Assembly: GCA_002049545.1 (NCBI GenBank)
Contig: LLYT01000011.1
Coordinates: 1-44,189 of the forward strand
Direction of reading: 5' to 3'
Origin: Deltaproteobacteria bacterium tcs-42
GTDB lineage: Bacteria > Desulfobacterota > Desulfuromonadia > Desulfuromonadales > Geopsychrobacteraceae
DNA: 44,189 bases
Shown: positions 1 through 18,053 of the stretch, in pieces
Numbering within the stretch: the first letter of the stretch is position 1
How the letters are laid out: each line of letters starts with the position of its first letter
Notes under the pieces: model-generated
Told to the model about the DNA's origin: nothing
The model's database searches: none
The model's input: the letters and a program-made list of their open reading frames with translations, nothing else
Program-made: the position numbers and the translations under genes

Positions 1-118
1 CACGGACGGCGACAGTCGAACGGCCATGGACGGCGTAAAGTGGCCCTTGGAATGGGTGCCTCAAGGCATTGCTGAACAGTTACAATTTAATGACTCTATC
101 TGCCAAGGAGGAAAAGCT

Positions 119-1411
119 ATGGAAGCACAGTTTCAAGTAAAAACCGACCCGGAACTCTGGGCCAAACTCGATATGGACGTGGAACGTTTTTCTAACGTTC
201 CGCCATCCTTGACCGGTGCATTTACTGAGATTTTTTTAAGCCAGGAAAATCGCCCGGAACGGATGGCCTACTTTGACGATATGGTAAGAAACATCTTTAC
301 TGGCCGTATCCAGGAGATGTACGACGCCAGGCAAGAAGGTCGTCCCGTAGTCGGGACCTTCTGTGTCTTCGTTCCAGAGGAGATCATCGATGCGGTTAAT
401 GGGGTTTGTGTTGGTCTCTGCGGTGGTTCACAGTTCTCAATTCCCGATGCCGAACAAATTATCCCGCGTAATATCTGCCCCATGGTTAAGTCAGCCTTCG
501 GTTTCAAGGTTGGTCGGATCTGCCCCTTCTTCCAGGTCGTCGATTTTGTTTATGGCGAAACCACCTGCGACGCCAAGAAGAAAAACTGGGAGTTGCTTGA
601 TGACTACGTTCCGACCTATGTCATGGAAATTCCACAGATGAAACGTGAGCGGGACAAAAAGTTGTGGATTGAGGAGGTGCAGGATTTCAAGGTTGCCATG
701 GAAGAAAAGTCCGGCAAAGAGGTTACCGAAACCAGACTGAAAGCGTCCATTGAAAAATTGAACGCAAAGCGCAAAGCGATGCAGCGTTTGAATGATTTAC
801 GCCACCATGACCCCTCGCCGATCAGTGGTCGCGATATGTTGCTGATTCAGCAGATCGCTTTTTATGACATCCCGGAACGTTTTACCGGAAAAGTGCATGA
901 ACTCTGTGAGGAGCTTGAGGCCCGGATCAAAACTGAAAACTATGTTGCTCCCAAAGGGACCACCCGGCTGATGATCTCAGGGACGCCCATGGCGCTGCCG
1001 AACTGGAAAGTTCACAACATCATCGAAACATCGGGTGCAGTCATCGTCAACGAGGAGAGCTGTATCGGCACGCGCTATTACAAGGATACCATCGCGACCG
1101 ATGGCACCAGTATGGATCAAATGCTGGAGAGGTTGACCGAACGTTATATGAAGATCGACTGTTCCTGTTTTACCCCGAATGATGATCGGATCGACCAGGT
1201 TCTTAAAGAGTACCGTGAGTCGGGTGCTCATGGGCTTGTCGACTGCTGCCTGCAGTTCTGCCACACCTATAATTCCGAGGCGGTCAAACTGCGCCGGGCG
1301 TGTGAAAAAGAGGGAATTCCGTTCCTGTCGATCGAGACCGATTATTCGCCGGAAGATGTTGGTCAGCTCCAGACCAGAATCGAAGCCTTTGTCGAACAGA
1401 TTGAGGATTAG
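119..1411 (+). CDS. 2-hydroxyacyl-CoA dehydratase / double-cubane-cluster family FeS protein
   Basis: A 430-residue member of the BcrC/BadD/HgdB superfamily, whose FeS proteins carry out ATP-driven low-potential reductions. The ATG at 119 is preferred because AAGGAGG lies at 105-111; an in-frame ATG at 26 would add 31 residues of unfamiliar sequence. Conserved cysteines appear in GVCVGLCGG, NICPMVKS, RICPFFQ, ETTCDAKK, EESCIG and VDCCLQFC, as expected for an FeS-cluster protein of this family. The activase follows 5 bp later. One dehydratase-like polypeptide paired directly with one activase resembles the YjiM/YjiL double-cubane pairs more than the two-subunit 2-hydroxyglutaryl-CoA dehydratase; no second large subunit is seen downstream, though the upstream side is outside the window. 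Family is confident; the substrate cannot be told from sequence. Confidence 0.85.
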   Translation: MEAQFQVKTDPELWAKLDMDVERFSNVPPSLTGAFTEIFLSQENRPERMAYFDDMVRNIFTGRIQEMYDARQEGRPVVGTFCVFVPEEIIDAVNGVCVGLCGGSQFSIPDAEQIIPRNICPMVKSAFGFKVGRICPFFQVVDFVYGETTCDAKKKNWELLDDYVPTYVMEIPQMKRERDKKLWIEEVQDFKVAMEEKSGKEVTETRLKASIEKLNAKRKAMQRLNDLRHHDPSPISGRDMLLIQQIAFYDIPERFTGKVHELCEELEARIKTENYVAPKGTTRLMISGTPMALPNWKVHNIIETSGAVIVNEESCIGTRYYKDTIATDGTSMDQMLERLTERYMKIDCSCFTPNDDRIDQVLKEYRESGAHGLVDCCLQFCHTYNSEAVKLRRACEKEGIPFLSIETDYSPEDVGQLQTRIEAFVEQIED

Positions 1412-1416
1412 CGATA

Positions 1417-2154
1417 ATGACCATAGGAATTGATCTTGGCTCAAGAACCATCAAGCTGGCTGTCCTTAAGGATGGTCAGCTTGATTCATGGAAAGTCGTC
1501 GAAAGCAGCTTTAAGCCCCATCTCCAATCGCAGGAATTACTCCAGGCTTATCCAGCAAAAAACATTATTGCGACCGGCTATGGCCGGCATTTGGCGAAAA
1601 AACATTTTGCTAAAGGTGTTATTACCGAAATCAAAGCCCATGCCCTGGGTGCGTACCATCTGTTTCCCGGTTGCCGTACCATCCTTGATGTTGGCGGGCA
1701 AGACTCCAAGGTGATCAGTCTGGATGCCAACGGCAAGGTCAGTAACTTCCAGATGAACGATAAATGTGCTGCCGGAACCGGTAAGTTCCTTGAAATGATG
1801 GCGGGATCACTTGGCTTTGAGCTCGATGAGTTTGGCGAGGCTGCATCGCTAGCATCTAATAACCTCAGCATCGGTAGTATGTGTGCTGTGTTTGCCGAAT
1901 CTGAGGTTGTCTCTTTACGCAATGATGGTCATTCTTCTGCAGACATTGCACGGGCAGTTCACATATCTGTCGTCGACCGGGTTGCAGCGATGTTGGAAAG
2001 AATTGGCATCTCCGGTGAGTTGGTTTTTTCTGGTGGCGTGGCCAATAACAGTTGTATTGCACAGCTGTTGGAGAAAAAACTTGGCCGACCCGTTTTTGTT
2101 CCCAAAGTCCCCGATATTGTCGGAGCGCTGGGTGCGGCATTGCATAAACCGTGA
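1417..2154 (+). CDS. Acyl-CoA dehydratase activase (BadF/BcrA/HgdC ATPase family)
   Basis: A 245-residue ASKHA-fold ATPase. It starts with MTIGIDLGSRTIKLAV (phosphate-1 loop) and has a second phosphate loop LDVGGQDSK. Two cysteines, in NDKCAAGTG and GSMCAVFAESE, are the usual ligands of the [4Fe-4S] cluster bridging the homodimer. The C-terminus VFSGGVANN and VGALGAALH is typical adenosine-binding sequence. Known role of the family: ATP hydrolysis drives single-electron transfer onto the partner FeS protein. The 5-bp gap after the dehydratase-like gene points to co-translation and an obligate pair. Length fits the family (about 250-270 aa). Confidence 0.9.
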   Translation: MTIGIDLGSRTIKLAVLKDGQLDSWKVVESSFKPHLQSQELLQAYPAKNIIATGYGRHLAKKHFAKGVITEIKAHALGAYHLFPGCRTILDVGGQDSKVISLDANGKVSNFQMNDKCAAGTGKFLEMMAGSLGFELDEFGEAASLASNNLSIGSMCAVFAESEVVSLRNDGHSSADIARAVHISVVDRVAAMLERIGISGELVFSGGVANNSCIAQLLEKKLGRPVFVPKVPDIVGALGAALHKP

Positions 2155-2192
2155 TCTCTTTAATCTGCAAAACAGAATCAGTCTGCGATATA

Positions 2193-4034
2193 TCAAATAA
2201 TCCCCTGCAGTGGACCACCGTTCACCGCTAATTGGTCAACTTGCTTTTCAATTTCTGGATCATCAATCAATGCGGGAGCATGGTGTGGTTTGCTGCGGGC
2301 ATCAATGAGTAGAGATCCTGAACAGCCCCAGTGTTTGGCTTTTGAAAAATGACCGATACCGTAGATATCGGCCGCCGGGTTGGAACGGGTAAAGCAAACC
2401 CAGAGCCAGTTGTTTAAGAGCGCCGCACAGAATTCACTATCATCAACAACCAAAATCATGGGAAAGCGATTGATGGGGTTATCCGGAGTCAACGTTTTAC
2501 AGAAGCGGAGCAGATTCAGGTCTTCTCCCGGCATAGATTCGCTGCAAGCCGGCCCCTCGAGGAGCAGAATTCCCGGCAGGGCAAGGGCAGGTTTTTTAAA
2601 TCCGCGAGGCAGGGTTAAATTTTCAGGAATTTCTGTCGGCAGGTCACGCCGTTTTTCACCGACAGCGGCAATAACGACTTTCGAGCCCTGATTCAGCCCG
2701 TGGCCGCTGTAATCGAGGGTATCAATGGTTGTCGCAGTCTGAAAGTGCAGGTCGCGTTGCCAGTCGACTCTTTCCAAAAGGTGTTGGAAAAAATCTGGAA
2801 TGTTGTTGACATCCAGCTGTGGATTGTCGTTTTGGTTCGCTATCAGCAGATATTTGGCCAGGGATAACTGCCCTTGTCCCAATATGGCATTGGCTTGAGT
2901 CAGTAGCTCCTGTGGTTGGTCGGGTTTGCTGTAGGGGGTGTAACGTTCGCTGCCAATGGCAAGCAACAGTGGATGAACCCCGGCGGCATCGACAGCATGA
3001 ACCGCTTTGATTCCGGGGAGAATCTCCGGGATCAGTGCTCCCGTCAGCTCATGGATAAATTCGCCGAAACTGGTATCTTCCTGCGGGGGCCGACCCACCG
3101 TAGTGAAAGGCCAGATAGCATCGGAACGATGGTAGACGCGATCAACCTTGATCAGTGGAAAATCGTGAGCCAGGCTGTAGTAGCCAAGGTGATCACCGAA
3201 AGGCCCTTCGGGTTTTTGTTGCTTCGGATCAATGGTGCCGCAGATGACAAAATCGGCTTCTGCCGGCATGGGTAAGAAACCGGGAGGCTGTACCAGCGGG
3301 ATTCGATGGCCACCAAGAAGTCCAGCGAAGGCGAGCTCCGGCATTCCTTCGGGGAGTGGCATAACGGCGGCAATCGACAGGCTTGGTGGACCACCGACAA
3401 AAATGTTAATGCGAAACGGCTGGTCAAGCTCCAGTGCTTCCTGATGATGAACACCGATACCGCGATGCAGCTGATAATGGAGGCCAATCTCCCGATCCTG
3501 AAGGTAATCGTTTCCCGATAACTGGACTCGATACATTCCCAGGTTGGAGGAACGAAACCCCGGTTTCCGACTGCTTTCGCTGTAGACTTGTGGCAAAGTA
3601 ATAAATGGGCCACCATCGTCGGGCCAGCTTTTTATCTGTGGCAGATCGCTGACGGTTGTCTGCTGCTGTAAAATTGAACCCGATTTAATTTTTTTGGGTA
3701 GCAAATGAAAGGCGGCCGGGGGGGCTGAAAGAAACATGGAGGGGTTTTTCAGCAGAGCTTTTGGGTCAAGCTTCAGTTTAACCAGGGTTTCGACTTGTTG
3801 CAGGGTATCGCGAAATAGATATCGGGTTCGATCCAGTGTTCCAAACAGGTTGGCCACGGCTGGAAAACGGCACCTGGTGAGGTTGGTGAAGAGCAGAGCA
3901 GGCCCTTGATGTTGATAGACCCGTCTCTGGATCGCACCAGCCAGAAGATTCTCTTCAATCGGCTGTTCGATGCGGATGAGTTGGCCACTATTTTCCAGTG
4001 CATTGACCGCTTGCCGGAGAGTTCTGTATCCCAT
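2193..4034 (-). CDS. UbiD-family (prenylated-FMN) decarboxylase
   Basis: A 613-residue protein of the UbiD/Fdc1 family, which (de)carboxylates unsaturated or aromatic acids using prenylated FMN made by a UbiX partner. Visible family features are the early MGYRTLRQAV segment, SNLGMYRVQL, EGPFGDHLGYYS (holding a conserved glutamate), and the C-terminal RSNPAADIYG and WGCSGSLLIDARSK blocks. The ATG at 4034 follows AGAGGGA. The length fits the longer UbiD subgroup seen in deltaproteobacteria. It is convergent with the activase gene, with 38 bp between the stops. No ubiX is in the window. A role in menaquinone synthesis (MqnL-like) or aromatic acid turnover is possible but only inferred. Confidence 0.85.
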   Translation of the reverse strand: MGYRTLRQAVNALENSGQLIRIEQPIEENLLAGAIQRRVYQHQGPALLFTNLTRCRFPAVANLFGTLDRTRYLFRDTLQQVETLVKLKLDPKALLKNPSMFLSAPPAAFHLLPKKIKSGSILQQQTTVSDLPQIKSWPDDGGPFITLPQVYSESSRKPGFRSSNLGMYRVQLSGNDYLQDREIGLHYQLHRGIGVHHQEALELDQPFRINIFVGGPPSLSIAAVMPLPEGMPELAFAGLLGGHRIPLVQPPGFLPMPAEADFVICGTIDPKQQKPEGPFGDHLGYYSLAHDFPLIKVDRVYHRSDAIWPFTTVGRPPQEDTSFGEFIHELTGALIPEILPGIKAVHAVDAAGVHPLLLAIGSERYTPYSKPDQPQELLTQANAILGQGQLSLAKYLLIANQNDNPQLDVNNIPDFFQHLLERVDWQRDLHFQTATTIDTLDYSGHGLNQGSKVVIAAVGEKRRDLPTEIPENLTLPRGFKKPALALPGILLLEGPACSESMPGEDLNLLRFCKTLTPDNPINRFPMILVVDDSEFCAALLNNWLWVCFTRSNPAADIYGIGHFSKAKHWGCSGSLLIDARSKPHHAPALIDDPEIEKQVDQLAVNGGPLQGII

Positions 4035-14287: not shown

Positions 14288-14995
14288 TCATGCAACAGGG
14301 GAAGAAAGTTTATCCGTCGCAGCAATCGATTCTTTATCGGTGTGGGGTCGTTTTCTTGCCGTGCCACGAATGGTTCGGCAAACGAAGGCAGGAGCTCCCG
14401 ACATTGGGCTCTCGGTTATCTGTTCGATATGGAGGCCATTTGCCTGGATAGCCGGGGCGGTATCTCGAGTTAAGCGACAATCTCCGGCACACAAACTCCA
14501 GAAAGGTTCGATTCTTCGTTGCCAGATCAAGATTTGCGGGTGATCAGAAATAATGTGTTCAAGGAATATCAAGATCCCATTCGGGCGTAGTAAACGATAG
14601 ATCTCCTTCAGGCTGTTATCAAGGGAGGGGACAGAACAGAGAACCAGGGTGGAAACAATCGTATCAAAAGAGGCATCGGCTGCATCTGCCGCCTCGGCCC
14701 CCCAATGGGTAATGTTGCACCTGTCACACTGCATTTGAGCTGTTTTACGTTTCAGGCTTTTACGCATCTGTGCGTCGGGCTCACTCAGGACGATCCTGGT
14801 GACCGCCGCGGGGTAGTGGGGAAGATTGACCCCGGTCCCTGCTCCAATCTCGAGCAAGTCGCCGCTGGCCTGGGACAGAAGCTCTTGACGCCAGCCGTGC
14901 AGGCAGTTTTTTTCGGTATTCCGCATGGCATAGTCATAACTCTTTGCAATCAGATAAGAGCGTATTTTTTGGATTGGCATTGATAAAGGTTCCAT
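14288..14995 (-). CDS. Class I SAM-dependent methyltransferase
   Basis: A 235-residue methyltransferase-11-type protein. Motif I LLEIGAGTGVNL binds SAM; the acidic residue ending beta-2 is in LSEPD; motif IV is FDTIVSTLVLCSVP; a post-motif LLRPNGILIFLEHI follows. A C-terminal FVCRTIRGTA end resembles small-molecule or lipid methyltransferases of the UbiE/phosphatidylethanolamine type. The start is uncertain: ATG 14995 has GAGAG directly against it, ATG 14980 has GATGGA about ten bases upstream. The substrate cannot be deduced. Confidence 0.8.
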   Translation of the reverse strand: MEPLSMPIQKIRSYLIAKSYDYAMRNTEKNCLHGWRQELLSQASGDLLEIGAGTGVNLPHYPAAVTRIVLSEPDAQMRKSLKRKTAQMQCDRCNITHWGAEAADAADASFDTIVSTLVLCSVPSLDNSLKEIYRLLRPNGILIFLEHIISDHPQILIWQRRIEPFWSLCAGDCRLTRDTAPAIQANGLHIEQITESPMSGAPAFVCRTIRGTARKRPHTDKESIAATDKLSSPVA

Positions 14996-15162
14996 CTCTC
15001 GGTGAGTCGATCGATTTCAAATCGGGTTTCAACGAATATGGTCGATATATTACCACAGCGGTTAGATATATTGCAGCTGGGAATTGGTAACTGCGGATCT
15101 ATAACTTCAGCTTTATTATGAACGGCCTTGTCAGGTTGAAGTTGTGGTTGTATATTCGCGCC

Positions 15163-16101
15163 ATGAATGCACTGGTTATAGAAAATCTCCACAAATCATT
15201 TGCTGGTATTCCGGCGGTCAAAGGGATCGACTTTACCATCAATCAAGGTGAAATTTTTGGGTTGCTTGGTCCCAATGGCGCCGGGAAAAGTACCACAATT
15301 AACATGATTGCCGGAGTTGTTCGGCCGGGATCAGGGCGCATCAGTGCTTTTGGCTACGACAATCAGCGTGATTATCGGCACACTCGAAGGATGTTGGGTG
15401 TTGTTCATCAGGAAATTGTCATTGATAACTTTTTCACTGTTGATCAAGCACTTCAACTCCATGCCGGGTACTATGGGGTCAAAGATGATCCCGCGTGGCG
15501 GCAATTATTGATCGAACGGCTGGGATTGCAAAACCACCTTGACAAGGTGATGCTGAAACTATCGGGTGGCTTGAAGCGGCGCTTCATGATTGCCAAAGCA
15601 CTTATTCATCGACCACAATTGTTGATCCTGGATGAACCAACCGCCGGAGTTGATGTCGAACTGCGACATGGCTTGTGGGAGTTTGCCAGGGAAATCAATC
15701 GGCAGGGAACCACGATTCTGTTGACCACTCATTACCTGGAAGAAGCTGAGGAGATGTGTGACCGTATTGCCATCATGAATCATGGTGAGCTGATTGCCCT
15801 GGAGGAAACACAAAAGCTGATCCGGCGGTTGTCGAATCGGCGGTTAAGTCTCTGGCTGGAGCAACCTCTGTTGGAGGTCCCCGTTGGTTTGGAGAGGTTT
15901 TTGCCCCGGTTGAAAGAGGATGGTAGTCTCCTCCAGCTTAACTTGCCCGCTGGTGAAGGTGCGGGACATATTCTGGTTCAACTGGCAGAATCGGGATTAA
16001 AGATCCGCGACATTGAGACGGAACAGAGCGGTTTGGAGGAGGTTTTCATCCATTTGACCGGAATGAAAGGGGTCGATGGTGGCAACCAGTCAAGACCATA
16101 A
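15163..16101 (+). CDS. ABC transporter ATP-binding protein (ABC-2 export type)
   Basis: A 312-residue ATPase with Walker A GPNGAGKST, signature LSGGLKRR, Walker B LLILDEPTAGVD and H-loop TTHYLEE. The C-terminal 80-residue extension is typical of the CcmA/NodI/DrrA group that pairs with ABC-2 permeases. Start at 15163 (MNALVIENL) fits the family; an in-frame ATG at 15118 adds 15 residues, and neither has a clear ribosome site. It overlaps the permease start at 16076 by 26 bp, so the pair is translationally coupled. Substrate unknown; polysaccharide, drug or heme-type export are all possible. Confidence 0.88.
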   Translation: MNALVIENLHKSFAGIPAVKGIDFTINQGEIFGLLGPNGAGKSTTINMIAGVVRPGSGRISAFGYDNQRDYRHTRRMLGVVHQEIVIDNFFTVDQALQLHAGYYGVKDDPAWRQLLIERLGLQNHLDKVMLKLSGGLKRRFMIAKALIHRPQLLILDEPTAGVDVELRHGLWEFAREINRQGTTILLTTHYLEEAEEMCDRIAIMNHGELIALEETQKLIRRLSNRRLSLWLEQPLLEVPVGLERFLPRLKEDGSLLQLNLPAGEGAGHILVQLAESGLKIRDIETEQSGLEEVFIHLTGMKGVDGGNQSRP

Positions 16102-16867
16102 ATATTATCCCTGGCTCCCGTTTGTCACTTTATTGCGTAAAGAAATTTTACGCTTCTGGAGGGTGTCAACGCAGACGTTATTGACCCCGATTGTGACGGC
16201 ATCGCTCTACCTGTTTGTCTTTGGGGCAACTTTGGGAGAACGACTCAATGTTCTTGAAGGGTTCAGTTATGCCCAATTTGTCATTCCTGGATTGATCATT
16301 ATGGGGGTCATCAATAATACTTTTGCCAACACCTCGTCATCTTTGTTTATGTCGCGCTACCTGGGGGGGATTGTCGACCTGTTGGTCACTCCGGTGAGCC
16401 CGCCGCAGTTTATTATGGCTTATACCCTGGCGGCGATGCTGCGTGGATTGGCGGTTGGAACCGTGGTCTGGCTGATTTCTACTCTGTTTGCGGTGTTGCC
16501 CTGGGAATCGCCCCTGCTAGCTATTCTGATGGCGGTCCTGGCCAGTTTTTTGTTTGCCCAGTTCGGCTTGATTGCTGCAATCTATGCACACAATTTTGAT
16601 ACTCTTTCAATGTACAGTAACTTCTTGATTTTACCTTTGGTCTATCTCGGAGGGGTTTTTTACCCGATTTCCATTCTGCCCGATCCATGGGGAACATTGT
16701 CTTATCTGAATCCATTATTCTATCTGATTGATGGGTTTCGGCATGCGATCATCGGTGTTGGGGATACCAGTTACCTGCTTGCTTTTGGAGTCAGTTCCGC
16801 AATTGCGGCAAGCTTGTTTGCCTGGGCTGCATGGCTGATCGGGAAGGGCTATCGCCTGCGAGCCTGA
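16076..16867 (+). CDS. ABC-2 type transport permease
   Basis: A 263-residue membrane protein with six predicted helices and the ABC-2 signature region ending in LPLVYLGGVFYPISILP. The N-terminal amphipathic FVTLLRKEILRFWRV segment is the coupling/elbow helix typical of the family. It partners the ATPase ending at 16101. The selenoprotein gene starts 13 bp after its stop, possibly by operon extension. Confidence 0.88.
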   Translation: MVATSQDHKYYPWLPFVTLLRKEILRFWRVSTQTLLTPIVTASLYLFVFGATLGERLNVLEGFSYAQFVIPGLIIMGVINNTFANTSSSLFMSRYLGGIVDLLVTPVSPPQFIMAYTLAAMLRGLAVGTVVWLISTLFAVLPWESPLLAILMAVLASFLFAQFGLIAAIYAHNFDTLSMYSNFLILPLVYLGGVFYPISILPDPWGTLSYLNPLFYLIDGFRHAIIGVGDTSYLLAFGVSSAIAASLFAWAAWLIGKGYRLRA

Positions 16868-16880
16868 AAGGGGATGAATT

Positions 16881-17153
16881 ATGTTGTCAGGAAAAAATCG
16901 GACGTCATTCAATGCATTCTATGATGCCGTAAGGGACGAATCAGCGCTGGATACCAAAACGACAATTCTGGTCGGTCTGGCTGCTGCTATGACGAGTGGT
17001 TGTTCTCCGTGAATGGAGCACTACCTTGGCGTGGCTGAGGAACAGGGGATCACGGGTGAAGAAATTGGTGCCGTACAAGGGATCTGTATGGCGGTTTCAG
17101 CAGGAAAAGTCAATGCACAATTTCGACAGGTTGAGACCCGGGGAGGTCGCTGA
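16881..17153 (+). CDS. AhpD/carboxymuconolactone decarboxylase-like selenoprotein (in-frame TGA = Sec44)
   Basis: A 90-residue protein if TGA 17010-17012 is read as selenocysteine. The frame starts at ATG 16881 after AAAGGGG and runs MLSGKNRTSFNAFYDAVRD to a TGA stop at 17151-17153. Residues 41-44 are C-S-P-U, followed by MEHYLGVAEEQGITGEEIGA, the CxxC(x)H peroxidase-type active site of the AhpD/CMD fold with Sec for the second Cys. Sequence similarity to the family continues unbroken across the TGA, and a hairpin of the bacterial SECIS type lies 3' of it. Function by family: thiol or selenol-dependent peroxidase/disulfide reductase in the cytoplasm. Standard callers would drop or split it. 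The adjacent gene is the redox chaperone Hsp33. Confidence 0.85.
17024..17040 (+). promoter_or_regulatory. Putative bacterial SECIS hairpin
   Basis: CCTTGGC (17024-17030) pairs with GCTGAGG (17034-17040), 7 bp with two G-U pairs, around the triloop GTG. The loop starts with G 18 nt after the TGA, within the usual 16-37 nt window for bacterial SECIS elements, where a G in the first loop positions is expected. Confidence 0.55.
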
Positions 17154-17177
17154 TTTGTTAGTTTGGAGTCGATATCA

Positions 17178-18053
17178 ATGGAAGATCATTTAGTTCGGGT
17201 TGTCAGCCCGGATGGTTTGTTTCGTGCGGCAGCGGCGGTCACAACTGAATTGGTGGGGACAATCTGTGCAAAACAGCAGACCGACATGACTGCAACGGTT
17301 GCGCTGGGGCGATTGTTGAGTGGCGGCGCTCTGCTGGGTTGCCTGCTGAAAGGGCGACAGCGCCTTGCTCTGTCGGTAGAGGGGAATGGGCCGCTGGGAA
17401 AAATGAGTGTGGAAGCCGATGCTGCCGGGACCATTCGTGGAACCATTCGTAATCCGATTGCTGATCTGCCCCCTGCCGGGGACCATTTTGATGTTGCTGG
17501 TGCTATCGGCAAGGCCGGATTTCTCCACGTCTGGAAGGATCTTGGTCTGAAAGAGCCCTACCAGAGTATGGTGCGGTTACAGAGCAGTGAAATTGCCGAG
17601 GATCTGGCCTGGTATCTGACCAGTTCTGAGCAGGTCCCATCAAGCATCGGGCTGGGAGTTGAGCTTGGTTCGGACGGTCGGGTTGCCGTCGCCGGTGGTT
17701 TTCTGGTGCAGTCATTACCTCCCGGAGATGCACAGAAGAATGAGATTCTGAGTGAGCGGATAAGGGAGTTGCCGCCAACAACCACTATGCTGCGTCAGGG
17801 TTTGACGCCGACAGAAATCCTTGCTCAGATATTTGGCTCTGACGGGTTTCAGATTCAGCAGGAGACCCCGCTGCGATTTTCTTGCCCCTGTATCCGGCCA
17901 CAGATAGAAGCAATGCTGACAGGTCTTGGTCGGCAGGAACTTGCCACTCTTATTGAGGAACAAGAAGAGGTTGAAGTCATTTGTGAGTATTGCCGTAACA
18001 GCTATAAATTCAGTCACCAGCAAATGGGTGAATTGCTCAAAGCAGCAAAATGA
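17178..18053 (+). CDS. hslO: Redox-regulated chaperone Hsp33
   Basis: A 291-residue protein starting MEDHLVRVVSPDG. ATG 17178 is preferred over the upstream TTG at 17163 because TTTGGAG (17162-17168) is well spaced. The C-terminal zinc-binding switch is intact: FSCPC, then CEYC about 30 residues later (CxC...CxxC). Oxidation of these cysteines releases zinc and activates holdase function in the cytoplasm. The upstream neighbour is the predicted selenoprotein with thiol chemistry, so the two may form an oxidative-stress unit (inference). Confidence 0.95.
   Translation: MEDHLVRVVSPDGLFRAAAAVTTELVGTICAKQQTDMTATVALGRLLSGGALLGCLLKGRQRLALSVEGNGPLGKMSVEADAAGTIRGTIRNPIADLPPAGDHFDVAGAIGKAGFLHVWKDLGLKEPYQSMVRLQSSEIAEDLAWYLTSSEQVPSSIGLGVELGSDGRVAVAGGFLVQSLPPGDAQKNEILSERIRELPPTTTMLRQGLTPTEILAQIFGSDGFQIQQETPLRFSCPCIRPQIEAMLTGLGRQELATLIEEQEEVEVICEYCRNSYKFSHQQMGELLKAAK

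Follow-up and report, generated by a model that had tools for sequence, protein, structure and literature searches.

The stretch of DNA analysed here (the window) is the whole 44,189-nt contig LLYT01000011.1 of Deltaproteobacteria bacterium tcs-42 (assembly GCA_002049545.1), a member of the Geopsychrobacteraceae in the order Desulfuromonadales. Between the genes of an ABC exporter and hslO, which encodes the redox chaperone Hsp33, it carries a short frame with a single in-frame TGA at the last position of a C-S-P-U motif (Table 1). The frame opens with the ATG at 16881 and closes with a second TGA at 17151-17153. Its read-through product, MLSGKNRTSFNAFYDAVRDESALDTKTTILVGLAAAMTSGCSPUMEHYLGVAEEQGITGEEIGAVQGICMAVSAGKVNAQFRQVETRGGR, matches the Pfam family PF02627 (CMD/AhpD core) over residues 10-74 with an E-value of 7.5e-11 (42.3 bits against a cut-off of 23). 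The gene is missing from the mechanical list of window ORFs of at least 80 aa, and callers that stop at TGA lose the protein. The first-pass annotation, made from the letters of the window, had proposed a frame opening here behind a good ribosome site, a TGA where the second active-site cysteine belongs, family-like sequence running on to the final stop and a gene invisible to standard calling. Its coordinates are right, and the rest is borne out by the Pfam match, the AAAGGGG run 7 nt before the ATG, the selection beyond the TGA described below and the ORF list. Elsewhere in the window, a methyltransferase gene (Methyltransf_11, 14288-14995, minus strand) adjoins the exporter genes and is found upstream in several relatives too, and genes for a 2-hydroxyglutaryl-CoA dehydratase D-component, a BadF-type ATPase and a UbiD-type decarboxylase lie in series at 26-4034.

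Table 1. Features at the candidate selenoprotein locus (positions in the window)
Feature	Positions	Strand	Evidence or remark
ABC transporter ATPase, DrrA-like (below the cut-off of the DrrA model)	15118..16101	+	Upstream neighbour kept in the window's family
ABC-2 permease (PRK15066, 248 vs 225 bits)	16076..16867	+	Directly upstream in 23/44 near loci
AAAGGGG, probable ribosome-binding site, 7 nt 5′ of the ATG	16867..16873	+	Sequence; many copies in the window's family are preceded by a comparable purine-rich run
Candidate selenoprotein gene, CMD/AhpD-fold CxxU protein	16881..17153	+	90 residues plus stop, Sec at residue 44; frame, Pfam match, 42-row ortholog alignment, AlphaFold2 model
TGT, Cys41, first residue of the CxxU motif	17001..17003	+	Cys in 42/42 aligned orthologs
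TGA, candidate Sec44 codon	17010..17012	+	TGA in 41/42 orthologs, TTA in 1/42; TGC in Cys homologs
SECIS-like hairpin CCUUGGC-GUG-GCUGAGG	17024..17040	+	7-bp stem 17024-17030/17034-17040, loop GUG 17031-17033
hslO, Hsp33 chaperone (284 vs 244 bits)	17163..18053	+	Directly downstream in 23/44 near loci

The genome to which the window belongs (2.55 Mb in 121 contigs) encodes the machinery that a selenoprotein needs. A search for selA, selB, selC and selD, put forward as a check of the first reading, recovers all four above their cut-offs. The genes selA (586.4 versus 267.9 bits), selB (356.9 versus 242.25) and selD (361.1 versus 125) are adjacent on contig C66, and contig C87 carries a tRNA-Sec with the anticodon TCA (71.2 versus 47). 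The SelD frame is likewise broken by an in-frame TGA near its N-terminus (SGU), at what we take to be the Sec site of Sec-containing SelD. By the established biology of bacterial Sec insertion, SelB carrying Sec-tRNA(Sec) would bind the hairpin at 17024-17040 and decode the UGA at 17010, while translation without Sec would end after 43 residues. That this genome instead uses UGA for an ordinary amino acid, a reading for which the open frame is the only argument, is hardly conceivable, given that TGA ends five of 17 sampled window genes as well as this gene itself and that a tRNA-Sec reading UGA and SelB are present.

Orthologs were sought in 136 genomes of the order. Some match at 1e-3 was obtained in 73 of these and a match with an E-value of 2.3e-22 or lower in 43, of which 42 were aligned. 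At the level of DNA 46 near loci were taken (L058-L104 minus L102); the counts of hairpins and contexts exclude three with a broken or remnant gene (L100, L103, L104), and the protein alignment excludes L099 and L101 as well. A contig scan gave seven named loci, including Desulfuromusa MAGs (L047 is Desulfuromusa sp. BB25) and Malonomonas rubra. C41, P43, Y48, L49, V51 and A52 are among the positions invariant in all 42 rows, and codon 44 is TGA in 41 of them. The sole aligned ortholog with another codon has TTA (Leu) at this place (G132, L072:1597-1599) and still keeps the hairpin and precedes selA. SelB was not found in this genome at 1e-40, and its contig breaks off within the start of a SelB-like frame, so that either a recent loss or an assembly error may explain the TTA. 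Homologs with neither Cys nor Sec at this position had been named as one observation that would speak against a selenoprotein, and this one ortholog is the only such case among the 42. Presence of the gene is patchy at close range: among the other 13 genomes from the window's genus, three hold an ortholog, nine give no match and one (G058) gives a weak match of 1.9e-4. Remnants in two genomes (G075, L104; G080, L103) and a broken copy in a third (G124, L100) indicate that the gene can be lost; both remnants retain the neighbours found in the window's family, suggesting that the gene was lost where it stood.

The codons on either side of the TGA evolve as protein-coding sequence. Pooled over pairs at least 70% identical, dN/dS in frame is 0.10 upstream of the TGA and 0.17 downstream of the hairpin, whereas the other two frames of both stretches give 1.6-2.3. 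The contrast is weaker in the nine codons that hold the hairpin (0.30 in frame, 1.37 and 0.73 out of frame). By this measure the stretch codes for protein both before and after the TGA, and the sequence past the hairpin is under purifying selection.

The hairpin is the second element that is kept. The first-pass annotation had described a 7-bp stem with a G-leading loop, which stands, and had placed the hairpin 18 nt after the TGA, which is the distance to the loop; the stem begins at 11 nt. Its geometry lies within the bSECIS ranges quoted in PMC13188914 (loop 3-9 nt, stem 4-16 bp, G in the first two loop positions, UGA-to-loop distance 16-37 nt), with a 3-nt GUG loop, a stem of 7 bp, G at the first loop position and a distance of 18 nt. 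The energy limit quoted in the same source is at most -7.5 kcal/mol; the 46-nt stretch of the window reaches -8.0 and the isolated hairpin -6.5, which together with that of G056 is the weakest of 44 near rows (median -9.4). The 46-nt stretch folds no better than its own shuffles (z = +0.53; 132 of 200 shuffles equal or beat it). Hairpins that reach the -7.5 limit follow 2-3% of the 1779 TGA triplets in the window, and the window's own hairpin, folded alone, misses that limit. Taken alone, the hairpin is not exceptional by chance.

It is the comparison between genomes that singles it out. In the 44 near rows (43 with TGA, one with TTA) the stem lies at +14 to +30 from the TGA, with all seven pairs formed in 43 rows and six in one. 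The hairpin and a GUN loop are kept in all 44 rows, and 99.7% of the 308 stem cells are paired. Three of the seven pairs have changed on both sides, in five cells (U-A to C-G in three sequences, G-C to A-U in one and C-G to U-A in one). The covariation score is reached by none of 500 shuffles and the number of pairs changed on both sides by four of 500, stems slid to other registers pair at 21-62%, and RNAalifold recovers the same stem unaided. Synonymous choice is frozen in the codons of the stem: CTT in 39/42, GGC for 41/41 glycines, GCC in 39/42 and AGG for 30/30 arginines (+9), while the loop codon varies between GTG, GTT and GTC. Mean relative synonymous entropy is 0.12 in the five stem codons versus 0.81 in 31 others (Mann-Whitney p = 2e-4). 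The observation at the window exceeds chance because of the TGA in 41 of 42 orthologs, the selection acting before and after it and a covarying stem in which synonymous variation is nearly absent. The same evidence weighs on the reading of the TGA as an early stop in a CMD gene that is decaying or was misread. Decayed copies do occur at the same place in G075 and G080, but a pseudogene or sequencing error is extremely improbable in view of a TGA shared by orthologs from separate genomes, the selection beyond it, the covarying hairpin and the Sec machinery.

More distant homologs separate the Sec form from a Cys form. Profiles were run against 277 genomes from the class and 395 from the phylum, evenly drawn, with matches at 1e-12 in 62 and 25 genomes respectively, partly the same ones. 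From these 35 further distant loci were taken, of which 26 were counted to the subfamily; the wider stretches of G447 and G492 and the second place of G414 were left out. At least six of the seven stem pairs are present in 15/15 subfamily loci with TGA and in 0/11 with TGC (Fisher 1.3e-7, uncorrected for kinship among the loci). Nine low-scoring loci (L168-L176) were left out of this count as other subfamilies; three of them have TGC and no stem (2-4 pairs), and six have TGA, likewise without a stem in the same register (2-4 pairs) and with other hairpins predicted. Aligning the read-through product with CMD/AhpD proteins, as had been recommended, thus gives a family match in which the UGA position falls on a true cysteine in 11 TGC homologs. 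In a FastTree protein tree, built without L099, L101, L157 (short) and L177, a single clade amid the Sec copies (support 0.87) takes in nine of the 11 Cys copies, and that of G650 lies apart. Rooted by paralogs, this suggests a change from Sec to Cys within the subfamily. Sec forms with the hairpin and Cys forms without it amount to a natural experiment on the loss of a SECIS element.

Sequence comparison therefore supplies an invariant cysteine, a TGA three codons on, selection past the TGA, a covarying hairpin, Cys homologs that are free of the hairpin and a genome equipped for Sec insertion. On this basis the stretch is almost certainly a selenoprotein gene of the CMD superfamily.

The surroundings of the gene differ between lineages. 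Its position between an ABC exporter and Hsp33, pointed out in the first reading, holds for the window and is seen only in the window's own family (f1). Among the 44 near loci the gene lies between the ABC-2 permease and hslO in 23, directly before selA in 18 and in neither setting in three. At the 18 selA-linked loci selB comes next in 17 and selD is seen in 13, several of these stretches being cut by contig ends. The gap to selA is 66 nt in 14 of the 18, as measured to extrapolated selA starts. In two of them (L074 of G133 and L093 of G004) a tRNA-Sec stops 20 and 28 nt short of the gene, so that the order reads selC-cmd-selA-selB-selD, and at a third selA-linked locus a tRNA-Sec lies about 3.5 kb upstream. 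Many selA-linked copies (among L080-L097) have no clear Shine-Dalgarno sequence before the ATG, unlike many of the hslO-linked ones; their actual start may be a different one, or they may be translated leaderless. A selenoprotein at the head of a selA-selB-selD operon suggests that it either takes part in supplying selenium or is an inbuilt gauge of the Sec supply.

This arrangement also raises the question of whether the UGA and the hairpin serve mainly as a selenium-sensing leader that tunes selA-selB-selD downstream in the relatives, or hslO here, with the protein being secondary. The place directly before selA at 18 near loci, the 66-nt gap shared by 14 of these and the two places behind selC speak for such a leader. 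The protein, however, is selected both before and beyond the hairpin and has a predicted CMD fold, and Cys homologs persist that have neither UGA nor hairpin. These three observations indicate that the protein is what is kept, and regulation could be an added role; a leader as the main function is improbable.

In other lineages the gene keeps company with the genes of mercury and arsenic methylation. At ten of the 26 distant subfamily loci (L144-L151, L154, L163) it lies directly behind hgcA-hgcB, with TGA in four genomes (G206, G187, G185, G551) and TGC in six (G245, G249, G250, G252, G256, G183). The assignment is made on G206, where HgcA scores 444.5 against 275 and HgcB 133.7 against 99 (NCBIfam cut-offs), and the other loci were matched to these proteins by tblastn. 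At three distant loci arsM lies upstream of the gene (G149, over the cut-off, G407 and G425), and in G425 (L159) a single cluster has the order arsM, cmd (Sec form), hgcA, hgcB. Thirteen of the 26 have none of hgcB, arsM, hslO and selA nearby. Within the class but outside the order, all 14 genomes that bear the gene hold HgcA, compared with 97 of 141 such genomes overall, and in nine of these it comes behind hgcB. Speaking against a universal link, the gene is carried by only 45 of the 160 genomes of the class that have hgcA. It is possible that the Cys or Sec homolog behind hgcA-hgcB is the third gene of some mercury-methylation operons, and its place directly behind hgcB, in Sec and Cys forms alike, makes it a candidate accessory protein for microbial methylmercury formation. 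In the window's genome HgcA was not found in a search at 1e-30, nor was ArsM over its cut-off (best 219 bits versus 263), so that the mercury and arsenic link comes from the loci of relatives and not from this organism. The 219-bit match is an ArsM-like domain (L224, G000 C44:27818-28435) that lies in a 1013-codon open frame and may be part of a fusion.

An AlphaFold2 model built from eight sequences predicts four helices (mean pLDDT 83.9, pTM 0.65). In a Foldseek search of the PDB the first 35 matches are titled CMD/AhpD-type, 'conserved protein' or similar (best E-value 1.8e-3) and are led by 3bey, RclX and TM1620; a profile search of PDB sequences agrees (3bey, 6e-8). The CMD fold and the aligned place of the CxxC pair are common to the window protein and to 3bey, TM1620 (1vke/1p8c) and RclX (7y4r), with 24-29% identity in structural alignments and Cys in these proteins where the window protein has Sec. 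They differ four residues on: 3bey, 1vke and 7y4r have His at +4 after the second cysteine, where the window's family has Tyr48, invariant in 42/42 orthologs. This histidine has a catalytic role in AhpD. With CxxC or CxxU plus His at +4 as the mark of the AhpD type, the window protein has the pair and lacks the His.

The main rival to the functional proposal below is an ordinary AhpD-type peroxidase that removes peroxides with Sec in place of Cys. It fits the CMD fold, the CxxU pair and the redox chaperone encoded next door, but the exchange of His for an invariant Tyr argues against it, as do the genes for Sec synthesis and for mercury or arsenic methylation that surround the gene in several other lineages. 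We regard it as unlikely, though a good deal less so than a leader. In the reading that we favour, the protein would be a small, helical selenol/thiol oxidoreductase in which the C-x-x-U pair reversibly closes to a selenenylsulfide, and it would act on or carry a soft, thiol-loving species such as selenium, mercury or arsenic rather than work as a classical AhpD. A role of this kind in soft metal(loid) or selenium chemistry is a tentative assignment that stops short of an even chance. It is proposed because of the neighbours (selA-selB-selD, hgcA-hgcB and arsM in relatives, hslO here) and because the best-scoring curated relatives are the AhpD domains of methyltransferase-linked selenoproteins. 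Against it, the neighbours differ between lineages, and hslO and the exporter say little on the substrate. As a whole, a working selenoprotein gene, with this function as a tentative addition, is very probably the best explanation of the locus.

A wider possibility, which we hold to be speculative, is that the stand-alone CxxU/CxxC CMD family represents a shared accessory factor of soft-element biochemistry in the phylum. It would handle the thiol- or selenol-bound element in mercury methylation (hgcA-hgcB-cmd), arsenic methylation (arsM-cmd) and Sec synthesis (cmd-selA-selB-selD, at times behind selC), and would have been recruited beside Hsp33 in the window's lineage. If this were true, the gene would be the third component of some hgcAB operons and, elsewhere, a selenoprotein built into the Sec operon.

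AhpD-like and CMD-like selenoproteins as such have long been known (PMC2398784, PMC1794560, PMC13188914, PMC9312934 and PMC1242214), as the first-pass annotation had remarked. Selenoprotein forms of HgcA and HgcB are also reported in a review table. In the open-access literature no paper was found that joins hgcAB to a carboxymuconolactone decarboxylase or alkylhydroperoxidase, no CMD link was found in the available portions of papers on hgcA and selenoproteins, and none of the titles listed concerns a selA- or hgcB-linked CMD protein; the selenoprotein-family papers of Haft (2023, 2025) may mention the family. A scan of viral contigs found no relative. No NCBIfam model of the searched release reaches its cut-off for the window's protein, nor does any for three relatives beside hgcB or selA, and the other orthologs were compared with these models by E-value only.

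Among the known systems closest to the window protein are three curated selenoprotein families. GSU3128 (NF041047) is likewise a small CMD-fold CxxU selenoprotein, and a 'distant AhpD homolog' selenoprotein is recorded for Geobacter in PMC1794560 and also in PMC13188914. Membership in this family was considered and rejected: the window protein reaches 26.4 bits where 110 are required, and the three relatives from other contexts 21.6-33.0. True GSU3128 members of the same order (L213 and L210, 153 and 164 bits) branch elsewhere in the tree, and their motif is CPDULxKHF, with His at +4, versus CxPUxxxYLG in the window's family. MBW1767730.1, a CMD-like CxxU selenoprotein in the tables of two selenoproteome reviews (PMC13188914, PMC9312934), shares the Pfam family and the motif, as judged from its table entry. 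The best-scoring curated models are those of the ArsM/AhpD selenoprotein (NF041537) and MduS (NF045649), both of which are matched by all 42 orthologs at E-values up to 1e-3. According to a review table, the AhpD-like part of both proteins carries CxxU. Membership in either was likewise rejected, with 49.2 bits against 510 for NF041537 and 56.4 against 380 for NF045649. The two models comprise 345 and 338 positions, respectively, and include a methyltransferase part, whereas the window protein is a stand-alone AhpD domain of 90 residues.
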